Shown here one piece after another: positions 29,216 to 35,120 of a DNA stretch of 35,494 nt. The DNA comes from a virus. Made by a program: the position numbers and the translations under genes. The notes below the pieces were generated by a model. The model did no database searches, was not told where the DNA came from, and was given only the letters and a program-made list of their open reading frames with translations. The stretch spans positions 1 to 35,494 of IMG/VR virus record IMGVR_UViG_3300022900_000038; one strand, given 5' to 3'. Position 1 is the stretch's first letter; each line of letters begins with the position of its first letter.

Positions 29216-29401
29216 TTATTTCTGGCGCTCAAAATAATCTGACAAACGCTCAACTGTTTCATAACGTATTTTGCCAACGCCATTTCGCACATTGTATATA
29301 GTCCAGCGCGATAGACCAGTAGCATCTGCTATGGCTTGCACTTGACGATCACCAAGCATCTGCTGGATCTTGTCAAGTCGGTACATTGTACTTGCTTCCA
29401 T
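29216..29401 (-). CDS. Cro/CI-like HTH regulator
   Basis: From ATG 29401 (GGAG eight bases upstream; an in-frame start at 29437 lies within the promoter region) this is a 61-residue protein. The HTH is clear at about residues 19-42: QVQAIADATGLSRWTIYNVR, then NGVGKIR. It then has a closing helix, YETVERLSDYFERQK. The size and lack of a dimerisation domain fit a Cro-like protein rather than a full CI repressor. It is transcribed divergently from the rightward early genes and probably binds the inverted repeat at 29427-29464. Confidence 0.85.
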   Translation of the reverse strand: MEASTMYRLDKIQQMLGDRQVQAIADATGLSRWTIYNVRNGVGKIRYETVERLSDYFERQK

Positions 29402-29426
29402 TTTTTTTACTCCAAAAACAATTATG

Positions 29427-29464
29427 GGGTTGTGCATAGACTACATTGCTGATAGGTACAACCC
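29427..29464. promoter_or_regulatory. Interlocked divergent promoters with inverted repeat
   Basis: An inverted repeat GGGTTGT (29427-29433) / ACAACCC (29458-29464) brackets two opposing sigma70-like promoters. Minus strand: TTGTAC (29461-29456), 17-base spacer, TATGCA (29438-29433), serving the regulator at 29401. Plus strand: TTGTGC (29430-29435), 17-base spacer, TAGGTA (29453-29458), serving the gene at 29489. Each -35 overlaps the other's -10, so only one polymerase could bind at a time. The repeat arms are natural operators for the regulator. Confidence 0.55.
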
Positions 29465-29475
29465 ACAAAATGCAA

Positions 29476-29488
29476 GTAGGGGTACAAA
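29476..29488 (+). promoter_or_regulatory. GTAGGGGTA box overlapping the ribosome-binding site
   Basis: GTAGGGGTACAAA ends directly before the ATG at 29489. GGGG serves as the Shine-Dalgarno at seven bases. The shared core with 29168-29181 suggests that it may also be a protein-binding site, which would let the regulator act at this start. Confidence 0.4.
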
Positions 29489-31769: not shown

Positions 31770-32088
31770 CTTAGCAAATAAACCACCTTTGGGTTTGAAA
31801 AAGCCCAAGGACAAAAAAAGCGTAAAGTTTTTGCGCTGGGTTAGAGAGCAGCCGTGCTGCGTCTGTGAGAGGTTTGGGGAGGTGCAGCAAAGCGCCACCC
31901 AAGCCCATCACCCTATCCATGATCGTCACGGCACTGAGAAGCGCCCAGACACAAGTTGTATCCCTTTATGCGAAGGGCATCATCAGGGTCTTTTTGACAC
32001 ATCCAAAATCGCGCTCCATCGTGAGCCAAAGCTGTGGCGCGAAACGTATGGGCCAGATTACAGCTATTCCCATTCAACCGAAATATAG
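31762..32088 (+). CDS. HNH/DUF968-like zinc nuclease
   Basis: I chose TTG 31762, which overlaps the upstream stop; a GTG at 31714 is possible. The 108-residue protein has a basic start (GLKKPKDKKSVKFLRWVREQ) followed by C-x2-C in 'PCCVCE', then QAHHPIHDRHGTEKRPDTSC, IPLCEGHHQGLFD. This is the His-rich core of DUF968/HNH-type nucleases that act in phage recombination, with 'AHH' and 'C-x2-HH' as metal ligands. It would cut branched or single-stranded DNA. The last 25 bases overlap the convergent rusA gene. Confidence 0.75.
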   Translation: MPNLANKPPLGLKKPKDKKSVKFLRWVREQPCCVCERFGEVQQSATQAHHPIHDRHGTEKRPDTSCIPLCEGHHQGLFDTSKIALHREPKLWRETYGPDYSYSHSTEI

Positions 32089-32489
32089 AGAACCGGCCCC
32101 CGATCAGGATGACAATACACTTTTCTGGATCTGATGCTGTGAACCTGTTTGTCATCTAACACCACTTTTCCTACAATCCCGTCAACGGCAGCCTTTATAA
32201 TGTTATCCAAATCAGGCTTGCTCATATGCCGTATGGCTCCATATTCGGCCTCTAGGCGCTTCATCTTGGGCCATGACTTAGGTATGTCCATGAAAGCCAC
32301 CATATCAACGTGAACGGGCCTGTCTGTCGGTTCTAGCCCGTGCTGCTTCATAGCTGACCATGCTGCTGCTTGAATGCGGGCTTCATACTCTTTTGTCTTT
32401 GTCGGGGTATAAGTGTGACCAGTGCGGGTAAAGCGTGGTCTGCCCTTTCCTTGGGGCTGTCCTGACACTTGGATCTCAACTTTATTCAT
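32064..32489 (-). CDS. rusA: RusA-type Holliday junction resolvase
   Basis: This 141-residue protein has the RusA signature: 'VSGQPQGKGRPRFTRTG', KPDLDNIIKAAVDGI (D93, D95, D103) and VLDDKQVHSIRSRKVY (D112, D113), the acidic residues that bind magnesium and cut four-way junctions. Its length is close to the 120 residues of Escherichia coli RusA. It is the only minus-strand gene in this rightward region and converges on the HNH gene with a 25-base overlap. It has no Shine-Dalgarno, and a good -10 box lies only 7 bases upstream of the ATG, so it may be leaderless. Confidence 0.93.
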   Translation of the reverse strand: MNKVEIQVSGQPQGKGRPRFTRTGHTYTPTKTKEYEARIQAAAWSAMKQHGLEPTDRPVHVDMVAFMDIPKSWPKMKRLEAEYGAIRHMSKPDLDNIIKAAVDGIVGKVVLDDKQVHSIRSRKVYCHPDRGPVLYISVEWE

Positions 32490-32529: not shown

Positions 32530-32558
32530 TTGACTTGTAGGCTATAAGCTACTATATA
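32530..32558 (+). promoter_or_regulatory. Early promoter module, copy 1
   Basis: TTGACT (-35, 32530-32535), 17-base spacer starting TGTAGGCT, and TATATA (-10, 32553-32558). TAAGCAACA (32566-32574) lies at the predicted start site. The same arrangement recurs at 32913 and 33824. It drives the gene at 32609, through a GC hairpin leader. Confidence 0.7.
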
Positions 32559-32574
32559 TAATGTATAAGCAACA

Positions 32575-32588
32575 GGGGCTACGGCCCC
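32575..32588 (+). other. UNCG-loop hairpin in the leader of the 32609 gene
   Basis: GGGGC-TACG-GCCCC is a perfect 5 bp stem with a UACG tetraloop. It follows the start-site 9-mer with no U-run and lies about ten bases before the AGGAGG site. It is probably a 5' stabilising hairpin. Confidence 0.6.
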
Positions 32589-32608
32589 GCAACGGCTAGG
32601 AGGCCAAC

Positions 32609-32872
32609 ATGATGACTACCGACCAAATCAAAACCGCAACTGACGCTGATTTATCTGAGTGGATGGCAAACGCTGTCGCCACACAAAGTTGCACCGGCCA
32701 CACTAAAGGCCACTTCAATGAAGTTGCAGCAAGCAATTACCGCGATGAGCTAATTGCGCGGGGCCATGACATTCCGACGATTGACTTCTGGGAATGCTTC
32801 AGAGGTGCAGATAGCAGCTACCGCGACAAGCTGTTTGAAACAGGAACCTATAACGGCAAAGGTTCATTCTAA
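32609..32872 (+). CDS. Small early protein, single-gene unit
   Basis: This 87-residue, acidic, soluble protein starts MMTTDQIKTATDADLSEWMA and includes 'KGHFNEVAASNYRDELIARGHDI' and 'FWECFRGADSSYRDKLFETGTYNGKGSF'. It has its own promoter (32530), an AGGAGG site and a terminator (32881), so it is a separate transcription unit. ATG 32609 and 32612 are both possible. No family is recognised. Small single-gene early units often encode proteins that alter host functions, but there is no sequence evidence for that. Confidence 0.75.
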   Translation: MMTTDQIKTATDADLSEWMANAVATQSCTGHTKGHFNEVAASNYRDELIARGHDIPTIDFWECFRGADSSYRDKLFETGTYNGKGSF

Positions 32873-32880
32873 AATAAATT

Positions 32881-32901
32881 GGGGCTTCGGCCCCTTTTTT
32901 T
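32881..32901 (+). terminator. Rho-independent terminator with UUCG loop
   Basis: GGGGC-TTCG-GCCCC (32881-32894) is followed by seven T. This is a textbook intrinsic terminator, 8 bases after the stop of the 32609-32872 gene and 12 bases before the next promoter. Confidence 0.92.
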
Positions 32902-32912
32902 ATGTTTAGGGG

Positions 32913-32941
32913 TTGCAATGTAGGCTATAGTCCCCTATATA
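32913..32941 (+). promoter_or_regulatory. Early promoter module, copy 2
   Basis: TTGCAA (32913-32918), a 17-base spacer starting TGTAGGCT, and TATATA (32936-32941). TAAGCAACA (32949-32957) starts 8 bases after the -10, as in copy 1, and runs into AAGGAG, the ribosome-binding site of the 32971 gene. Confidence 0.75.
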
Positions 32942-32970
32942 TAATTTATAAGCAACAAGGAGATGACCTT

Positions 32971-33303
32971 ATGGAAAACGCAATGAACAACTTACTGGCC
33001 GCAATCAAATCTGATTACAGAAAATGGCATGGCCCCAACCCATGTGTTGTAAAAACCGATATGATCGCTGAGTTTGAAGATGGCCTGTCTTATAAGGTTG
33101 GCCCAAAGTATATCAAAATCACTACTAAAACCCGAAATCAAGAAATGGTCTGGGGTTTTGTGATGAAGGCAGATGACGCCAAGTTTCAAGCCGGTGACAT
33201 TCTCAAGCCCGCCGGTTGGTCAGCGCCAGCCCGCAACAAAGCGCGTGGCAACATTTTCGGTGACTATAAAATTCAATGGACAGGCCCAAACTACTTGGTC
33301 TGA
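32971..33303 (+). CDS. Small early protein of unknown function
   Basis: From ATG 32971 (AAGGAG eight bases upstream; the frame is open to 32902 but that part covers the promoter) this is a 110-residue protein: 'MENAMNNLLAAIKSDYRKWHG', 'EFEDGLSYKVGPKYIKITTKTR', 'MVWGFVMKADDAKFQAGDILKPAGWSAPARNKARGNIFGD' and 'IQWTGPNYLV'. The 'GDiLkPAgw.aPArNkaRGNif.G.y..qWTGP.YL' pattern is known to me from several phage proteins. No activity is known. It looks like a compact alpha/beta protein and is the first gene of a two-gene unit. Confidence 0.8.
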   Translation: MENAMNNLLAAIKSDYRKWHGPNPCVVKTDMIAEFEDGLSYKVGPKYIKITTKTRNQEMVWGFVMKADDAKFQAGDILKPAGWSAPARNKARGNIFGDYKIQWTGPNYLV

Positions 33304-33309
33304 TAATCA

Positions 33310-33325
33310 GGGGGCTACGGCCCCC
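33310..33325 (+). other. UNCG-loop hairpin between two early genes
   Basis: GGGGGC-TACG-GCCCCC is a perfect 6 bp stem with a UACG loop and no U-run. It lies between the 32971 stop and the CAGGAG site of the 33348 gene, so it probably protects or processes the message rather than ending it. Confidence 0.6.
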
Positions 33326-33347
33326 ACTACAGCGACAGGAGAACGCT

Positions 33348-33767
33348 ATGAAACTTTATACGAACAACAAAGGCGAATGGGCTGGCACTCAAGCTGAAGC
33401 TCGCAAGCGCTTTAAAAATGATATGAGAATTATTGAGGTTCCAACCGACAAGCCAAGCTTGCTGGCATTCCTCAACGAACATCAAGTTGGCTCATTTGAT
33501 GTCCTTGTCAATAATGCAGCCGATGGGTTATTTTCCGATATAATGGGTGGCAATCCTTTAGACAGCTTCCCAGATGCACCCTTAAAATTTAAGATGAGCC
33601 ACGGCCCTGATGGTGATGTACGCCTGACAAGGCAGAACCCAGACAGCCACCCGCACCGCTGGGATACTATCCGCGAATGTGCTGAGAAAGCATCCTTCAA
33701 GGATCTAGGCGTTGCTCTGGCCGTGCTGATGAACCGGCTGGATGAGGTGGCCGATCAAGTCTCATAA
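33348..33767 (+). CDS. Small early protein of unknown function
   Basis: From ATG 33348 (CAGGAG seven bases upstream) this is a 139-residue soluble protein. The N-terminus MKLYTNNKGEWAGTQAEARK, then RFKNDMRIIEVPTDKPSLLA resembles small phage proteins with a 'y.t..GeW.Gtq.eA...fk...' opening. The middle is acidic and Pro/Asp-rich. The C-terminal helix reads DLGVALAVLMNRLDEVADQV. No family is recognised with certainty. It is followed by a terminator at 33781, so it ends the unit that starts at 32971. Confidence 0.75.
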   Translation: MKLYTNNKGEWAGTQAEARKRFKNDMRIIEVPTDKPSLLAFLNEHQVGSFDVLVNNAADGLFSDIMGGNPLDSFPDAPLKFKMSHGPDGDVRLTRQNPDSHPHRWDTIRECAEKASFKDLGVALAVLMNRLDEVADQVS

Positions 33768-33780
33768 GTCTATACCCAAG

Positions 33781-33821
33781 AGTTTGCTATTAACCTAAAT
33801 TGGTTTTTAGCAAACTTTTTT
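33781..33821 (+). terminator. Rho-independent terminator of the 32971-33767 unit
   Basis: AGTTTGCTA (33781-33789) pairs with TAGCAAACT (33808-33816), extended by AACC/GGTT inside the loop, and TTTTTT (33816-33821) follows. It lies 13 bases after the stop and just ahead of promoter copy 3. Confidence 0.8.
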
Positions 33822-33823
33822 AC

Positions 33824-33851
33824 TTGCAATGTAGTCTGCAATCTCTATAAT
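33824..33851 (+). promoter_or_regulatory. Early promoter module, copy 3
   Basis: TTGCAA (33824-33829), a 16-base spacer starting TGTAGTCT, and a consensus TATAAT (33846-33851). TAAGCAACA (33860-33868) starts nine bases after the -10, with AAGGAG directly behind. It drives the six-gene unit from 33880 on. Confidence 0.8.
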
Positions 33852-33879
33852 AGCATCTGTAAGCAACAAGGAGAATAAA

Positions 33880-34709: not shown

Positions 34710-34794
34710 TTGGGTGCAAGACATCATCATCACTGCGGCGATTGCTGCGGTGGTGCTAGGCTGGATCTTTGGCGTTAGCATGGGGTGGATGTAA
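34702..34794 (+). CDS. 30-residue membrane micropeptide
   Basis: The frame MTNWVQDIIITAAIAAVVLG, then WIFGVSMGWM, encodes one membrane helix (about residues 7-26). ATG 34702 has GGAG six bases upstream within the end of the previous gene, and the stop overlaps the next start (TAATG). The tight packing makes it a credible gene that size cut-offs would miss. Small single-helix proteins of this size in early units can act on host membrane complexes, but there is no direct evidence here. Confidence 0.65.
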   Translation: MTNWVQDIIITAAIAAVVLGWIFGVSMGWM

Positions 34795-35120
34795 TGTCAT
34801 ATAACATAAGCTATCGCGGCCCATATTATGTTTACGCCCTTATGAGCGATACGAATGAGTATTTATATATTGGCAGAACCAGAGATATTCATCAACGCAT
34901 TGCTCAACACAAAGGCACAAAGCATTGGTTTCCAGAAGTTAAGGAAGTTTGGTGTCAGGAAATTTTTACTGAAGAATATTTGGATGTAAATGAACATGAG
35001 CGCACTTTGATTGAGTATTTTAAGCCAAAATACAACAAGACCGCTCACAAACAGCCAAAACTAGAAACGCCGCCGATTTATGAATGCGAGTTTGTTTATG
35101 TGCAGGAGTGTGTCGCATGA
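34794..35120 (+). CDS. GIY-YIG endonuclease-domain protein
   Basis: From ATG 34794 (a start at 34785 would overlap more) this is a 108-residue protein. Residues 10-83 are a GIY-YIG domain: YVY (12-14) in place of GIY, YIG at 25-27 (EYLYIGRTRD), R35, H39 (QRIAQHKG), E69 (NEHERTLIEYFKP) and N81 (KYN). These are the residues that cut DNA in this fold. It is a free-standing domain followed by a short Pro-rich end. It could be a homing-type, repair-type or host-DNA-cutting nuclease. No intron or intein is seen nearby. Confidence 0.85.
   Translation: MSYNISYRGPYYVYALMSDTNEYLYIGRTRDIHQRIAQHKGTKHWFPEVKEVWCQEIFTEEYLDVNEHERTLIEYFKPKYNKTAHKQPKLETPPIYECEFVYVQECVA

Follow-up and report, generated by a model that had tools for sequence, protein, structure and literature searches.

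The locus and its phage

The DNA analysed, a virus record of IMG/VR, is 35,494 bases long and is called the window hereafter over its full length. It carries three promoter-like modules, P1, P2 and P3, in front of small genes (Table 1), which are unrelated to one another as the sequence-only reading of this DNA had stated. The neighbouring genes form a recombination set, with SSB-like, NinB/Orf-like, HNH and RusA members. No informative family match was found for any of the cargo genes scanned, and a PADLOC scan of these genes gave nothing convincing. The GIY-YIG gene is missing in some relatives, and possibly represents a homing-type element within the same shuffled stretch.

By DNA, the nearest named relative is the Roseobacter phage CRP-902, only over 576 and 396 bases. 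Its gp29 is 87% identical to gene 3, with a different upstream region that lacks the module. The nearest terminases, all below 50% identity, are those of Methylophilales, Rhodoferax and Pelagibacter phages. About 18 related contigs were gathered through the genes behind the three sites, the module pattern and the neighbouring rusA. These contigs are metagenomic and some are near-identical, so that the independent events are fewer than the contigs. In the near-identical contig G001 (L223), the 139-aa protein differs in a short stretch, FDVLVNNAADGLFSDI against FDALGSKPDDNQLSDM; both variants were seen in other relatives, which suggests a small recombined patch.

Table 1. Features of the module region and of the regulator control region (positions in the window).
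Feature	Position	Strand	Remarks
Control region	29402..29488	.	Between HTH regulator gene (29219-29401, minus) and plus-strand operon; GCAATGTAGTCTAT on minus strand
RusA-like Holliday junction resolvase	32064..32489	-	PF05866, E 4e-27; divergent neighbour, fixed left anchor of the region
Module P1	32530..32580	+	TTGACT, TGTAGGCT spacer, TATATA/TATAAT, leader TATAAGCAACA fused to GGGGCTACGG hairpin leader; slot 1 empty here
GGGGC(UACG)GCCCC hairpin	32575..32588	+	Opens gene 1 leader; joint where slot-1 cargo of relatives ends
Gene 1, 87 aa	32609..32872	+	No assigned function
Intrinsic terminator T1 (predicted)	32881..32901	+	GGGGC(UUCG)GCCCC and T7; precedes P2
Module P2	32913..32963	+	TTGCAA, TGTAGGCT spacer, TATATA/TATAAT, leader AAGCAACAAGGAGA with Shine-Dalgarno
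Gene 2, 110 aa	32971..33303	+	Widespread marine-phage family phrog_5014, weak DUF7717
GGGGGC(UACG)GCCCCC hairpin	33310..33325	+	Between the two genes of unit 2; recombination joint in L255
Gene 2b, 139 aa	33348..33767	+	No assigned function; other genes in its place in relatives
Intrinsic terminator T2 (predicted)	33778..33821	+	Long AT-rich stem and T6; precedes P3; fold z = -7.3; constant in all relatives
Module P3, type P3a	33824..33874	+	TTGCAA, 16-base spacer, TATAAT, leader TAAGCAACAAGGAGA with Shine-Dalgarno
Gene 3, 189 aa	33880..34449	+	phrog_27218 (no assigned function)
Gene 4, 86 aa	34449..34709	+	First behind P3b in relatives without gene 3
GIY-YIG endonuclease-domain gene	34785-35120		PF01541, E 8e-9; downstream of cassette region

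Three copies in one register

The three sites lie where they had been reported (32530, 32913 and 33824), and TTG(A/C), TGTAGNCT and the 9-mer TAAGCAACA are present in each. P1 reads TTGACT-TGTAGGCT...TAAGCAACA, P2 begins with TTGCAA-TGTAGGCT and P3 with TTGCAA-TGTAGTCT. The hexamers were located at 32553-32558 (TATATA, P1), 32936-32941 (TATATA, P2) and 33846-33851 (TATAAT, P3), which bears out the offsets of 8, 8 and 9 bases proposed between the -10 hexamer and the start of the 9-mer. Counted from the start of TGTAGNCT to the end of TAAGCAACA, the length is 39 bases in all three copies. The P3 hexamers agree with 10 of 12 sigma-70 consensus positions at a spacing of 16. P1 and P2 would fit the sigma-70 rule (TTGACA- and TATAAT-like boxes, 16-18 apart) through TATATA at a spacing of 17; both also carry a perfect TATAAT, but only at a spacing of 21, which makes their -10 ambiguous.

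A resemblance by chance among AT-rich promoter-like sequences would agree with two of the counts: an automatic promoter scan flagged P3 only and found 14 sites in the region for 13.5 expected, which is the chance level, and the 9-mer with one mismatch allowed is equally at chance level in the window. The fixed register argues against it. Since a loose pattern with a variable gap was matched mainly by chance, mostly within genes, a fixed register was adopted, and TGTAGNCT-N22-TAAGCAACA with at most two mismatches was found 3 times against 0.01 expected (0 of 100 shuffles). The exact 9-mer occurs three times in the window, always at P1-P3. Pairwise identity over 45 bases is 37/45 for P1 and P2, without indel, and 32/45 and 29/45 for the other pairs, as compared with a mean of 18/45 for random 45-mer pairs in which all nine box positions were granted as identical (P about 1e-4 for at least 29). 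The identity exceeds what common boxes alone give. Across the whole module, no inverted repeat common to the copies was found.

A conserved block of 51 bases and its types

Among the related contigs, the conserved block begins with the first T of the -35 box, ends with the Shine-Dalgarno and measures 51 bases without any indel; it follows the pattern TTGN4GTAGNCY-N26-CAACAAGGAG. A search over 2.9 million viral contigs recovered the full pattern in 20 IMG/VR stretches, all 20 in this clade, and none of 84,980 prokaryote species genomes contains it. The enrichment in related phages that had been set as a check was thus found, and the module is specific to this phage clade. With the P3 region as query, blastn against phage records yielded nothing but short stretches of unrelated sequence. 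Chance resemblance, to which we give practically no credence, is refuted by the fixed-register excess, the clade restriction and the invariant columns.

Four block types, P1, P2, P3a and P3b, are present across the clade, each being kept throughout. When the consensus sequences of the types are compared, TTG, GTAG and CT are invariant, as are the whole of CAACAAGGAGA and parts of the -10 region. Sigma-70 does not require a conserved GTAGNCT in the spacer, which is a point against the role proposed below. Beyond the block, slots 1, 2 and 3 show only background identity to one another, and similarity ends at both block edges.

The 9-mer had been presented as the conserved transcribed element at the start site, which has to be amended. 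Relatives carry TATAGACAACA, TATAAACAACA or TATAGGCAACA in its place, and the two bases 5' of CAACA vary (GA, AA, GG, AG or GT); TAAGCAACA as such is therefore not the conserved unit, and it is CAACAAGGAG, including the Shine-Dalgarno, that is constant. The identical 9-mer is found three times only in the window and one near-identical contig. The leader is not a general ribosome site of these phages: with one mismatch allowed, each contig has no more than two or three forward-pattern occurrences of RRCAACAAGGAG, and these are at the modules.

The units had also been considered as recently duplicated, and the copies could be plain duplications, too recent to have diverged and with no selected role past that of ordinary promoters. 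The indel-free identity of P1 and P2 and the equal block length in all copies are in line with such an origin. However, the conservation of each type throughout the clade makes the copies older than the clade itself; moreover, similarity halts at the -35 box and the Shine-Dalgarno, not at arbitrary points, and the invariant columns cluster in TTG, GTAG, CT and CAACAAGGAGA. Recent duplication is thus an improbable explanation.

Terminators and hairpins

GGGGCTTCGGCCCC followed by a T run precedes P2 and is predicted as an intrinsic terminator from sequence and fold. P1 stands back to back with rusA and has no stem-loop in front. Hairpins of the type GGGGC(UNCG)GCCCC are three in number, all in this stretch and none elsewhere in the window (0.02 expected): they are the terminator that precedes P2, the hairpin at the head of the gene 1 leader and the one separating the two genes of unit 2.

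In the leader of gene 1 (GGCUAGGAGGCC, 32602-32613 region), a 4-bp hairpin holds the Shine-Dalgarno in its loop. The equivalent GCUCUGGAGGGC in L235 and L237 belongs to the leader of a different gene and has the same fold with changed stem bases. This element could be a small translation-control hairpin.

Cargo exchange and natural recombinants

Slot 1 shows six states behind P1 among the about 18 contigs. It is empty in 5 contigs, window included, and otherwise harbors a gene of 62, 74, 98 or 134 aa or, in L247, a P2-type module with a gene of the 197-aa family. The cargo of slot 2 is either the 110-aa or a 197-aa gene; in slot 3, P3a goes with the 189-aa gene and P3b with an 88-aa gene. Block edges are where the breaks fall: cargo diverges directly past CAACAAGGAGA on the right; on the left, T2 matches at 38 of 40 bases and P3a and P3b diverge from TTG onward.

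Two natural recombinants were found, with one joint at a module edge and one at a hairpin. L247 has the P1 flank fused at TTG to a module of the P2 type that carries slot-2 cargo. In L255, the hairpins of slots 1 and 2 (repeated GGGGCTACGGCCCC) are fused to each other, P2 and gene 2 being absent.

Where slot 1 is occupied, the stop codon of the cargo is followed by a version of CAACAGGGGCTACGGCCCC, and P1 of the window leads directly into this CAACA joint. Because P1 runs directly into the joint that ends the cargo of relatives, the 9-mer of copy 1 is read as a CAACA junction, and it was probably formed by recombination there. Its TAAG is perhaps what a lost gene left of its stop codon, as seen in L140 and L218 (TAAGCAACAGGGG). 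Slot 1 may, however, have either lost or gained cargo. The CAACA and TTG joints measure only 3-5 bases, which is short for homologous recombination.

The sister clade and the regulator control region

Sister contigs, with RusA at about 69% identity, present a different promoter-like sequence, TTGCAATAGTGTAAAACGTAATATACATATAATGTATAGACA, at the same place and in one copy per contig. Behind it, eight unrelated first genes were counted across 19 contigs, and this rusA-divergent site (L273-L294) is a separate accessory-gene socket. A fixed promoter with changing first genes is thus not confined to the triple arrangement. In L301 (RusA 77%), a homologue of the 86/88-aa gene lies inside an operon, with neither module nor terminator in front, so that T2 and P3 were gained or lost together, as one element.

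The conserved spacer (TGTAGNCTATA) may alternatively be seen as an operator of the HTH regulator of the phage, which would place the three units and the plus-strand operon in one regulon; in the sister clade, regulator and operator would then have changed in parallel (TGTAG against TGTAA types). Genes entering a socket would in that case fall under phage regulation at once. This idea was tested by ranking all 90-base windows. The control region of the regulator holds GCAATGTAGTCTAT, as in P2 and P3, and 0.5-1.3% of the 90-base windows match P2 or P3 equally well; similarly, the sister-clade promoter spacer GTGTAAAACGTAA resembles GTGTAAAGCATAA in the control region of its own regulator (0.7% of windows). 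On the contrary, P1 has no special match to the control region, other places match P1-P3 equally or better, and the position relative to the -35 is not the same in control region and modules. The stretch also varies in relatives, whereas its outer arms, GGGTTGT/ACAACCC, do not, and identity of the regulator protein is 94-100%. Since P1 lacks the match and the stretch varies between constant arms, both the operator and its parallel divergence are retained as minor, rather unlikely hypotheses.

The HTH control regions of CRP-902 (L001, 5590-5701) and of the sister clade (L283 and relatives) have common TTTACA-N15-TGTAAA arms, with a near form in L271, and the clade of the window has the GGGTTGT/ACAACCC arms instead. 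The TTTACA-N15-TGTAAA arms may be either an operator or face-to-face promoters.

Proposed role of the modules

The modules are likely to be sigma-70-type promoter/leader blocks of independent small units that double as recombination joints. Each copy would be read by the host RNA polymerase from a sigma-70-type promoter, followed by the region of the start site and by a short 5' leader with little structure that ends in the Shine-Dalgarno (CAACAAGGAG). With intrinsic terminators before the second and the third, the modules would delimit three small independent transcription units of accessory genes. We infer promoter activity, start sites and early timing from the sequence, and the units are probably early. 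The units have the modules and the repeated UNCG hairpins in common, and these would therefore serve as joints for recombination between and within phages. Cargo genes would be swapped or lost with breakpoints at module edges, an incoming gene being expressed at once, and these breakpoints would be set by recombination at repeats rather than by selection alone. The blocks thus look like exchangeable sockets for small accessory genes.

The genes found in such slots are candidates for functions in host take-over or counter-defence. The tag TTGN4GTAGNCY-N26-CAACAAGGAG, together with the promoter of the sister clade, allows the accessory genes of these phages to be harvested.

Comparison with known systems

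Morons of lambdoid phages are single promoter-gene-terminator insertions with their own unrelated promoters, and short border sequences are common to module borders in these phages. The units described here similarly associate promoter, gene and terminator independently, with short common sequences at their borders, but the genes change behind one promoter block, which is kept and used again.

In cluster K mycobacteriophages, the SAS and ESAS are clade-specific repeats just 5' of the start codons of unrelated small genes; the SAS is a 13-mer with many copies genome-wide, and the ESAS adds a 17-base inverted repeat (PMC3203893). The present modules are likewise start-linked, clade-specific and span the ribosome site, but they differ in sequence and form a promoter-to-ribosome-site block in three clustered copies. 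They do not belong to the SAS/ESAS, as the consensus GGGATAGGAGCCC differs from the leader CAACAAGGAG and there is no common inverted repeat.

The closest kind is that of the PeSLs (promoter-early/stem-loop mobile regulatory cassettes) of T4-type phages (Arbiol 2010; Comeau 2014), described in PMC4503421 and PMC3950731 as composite promoter-terminator motifs that mediate shuffling. Both systems place a composite of terminator stem-loop and promoter between genes, as in T1-P2 and T2-P3 (P1 has no stem-loop), and both have repeats in an accessory region poor in gene function with genes shuffled between them, here in three slots and about 18 contigs. By contrast, the phage is here small and non-T4, the copies number only three, leader and Shine-Dalgarno are part of the conserved block, and the separate UNCG hairpins are a second kind of joint. 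The records are of 35-37 kb, with podo/pelagiphage-like terminase and portal; because the phage is not T4-type, the modules would work like PeSLs and not be members by descent. They are a well-bounded new instance outside the T4 group, not a new principle, and extend promoter-cassette-driven gene shuffling from T4-type phages to a clade of small uncultured marine phages, partly related to a roseophage.
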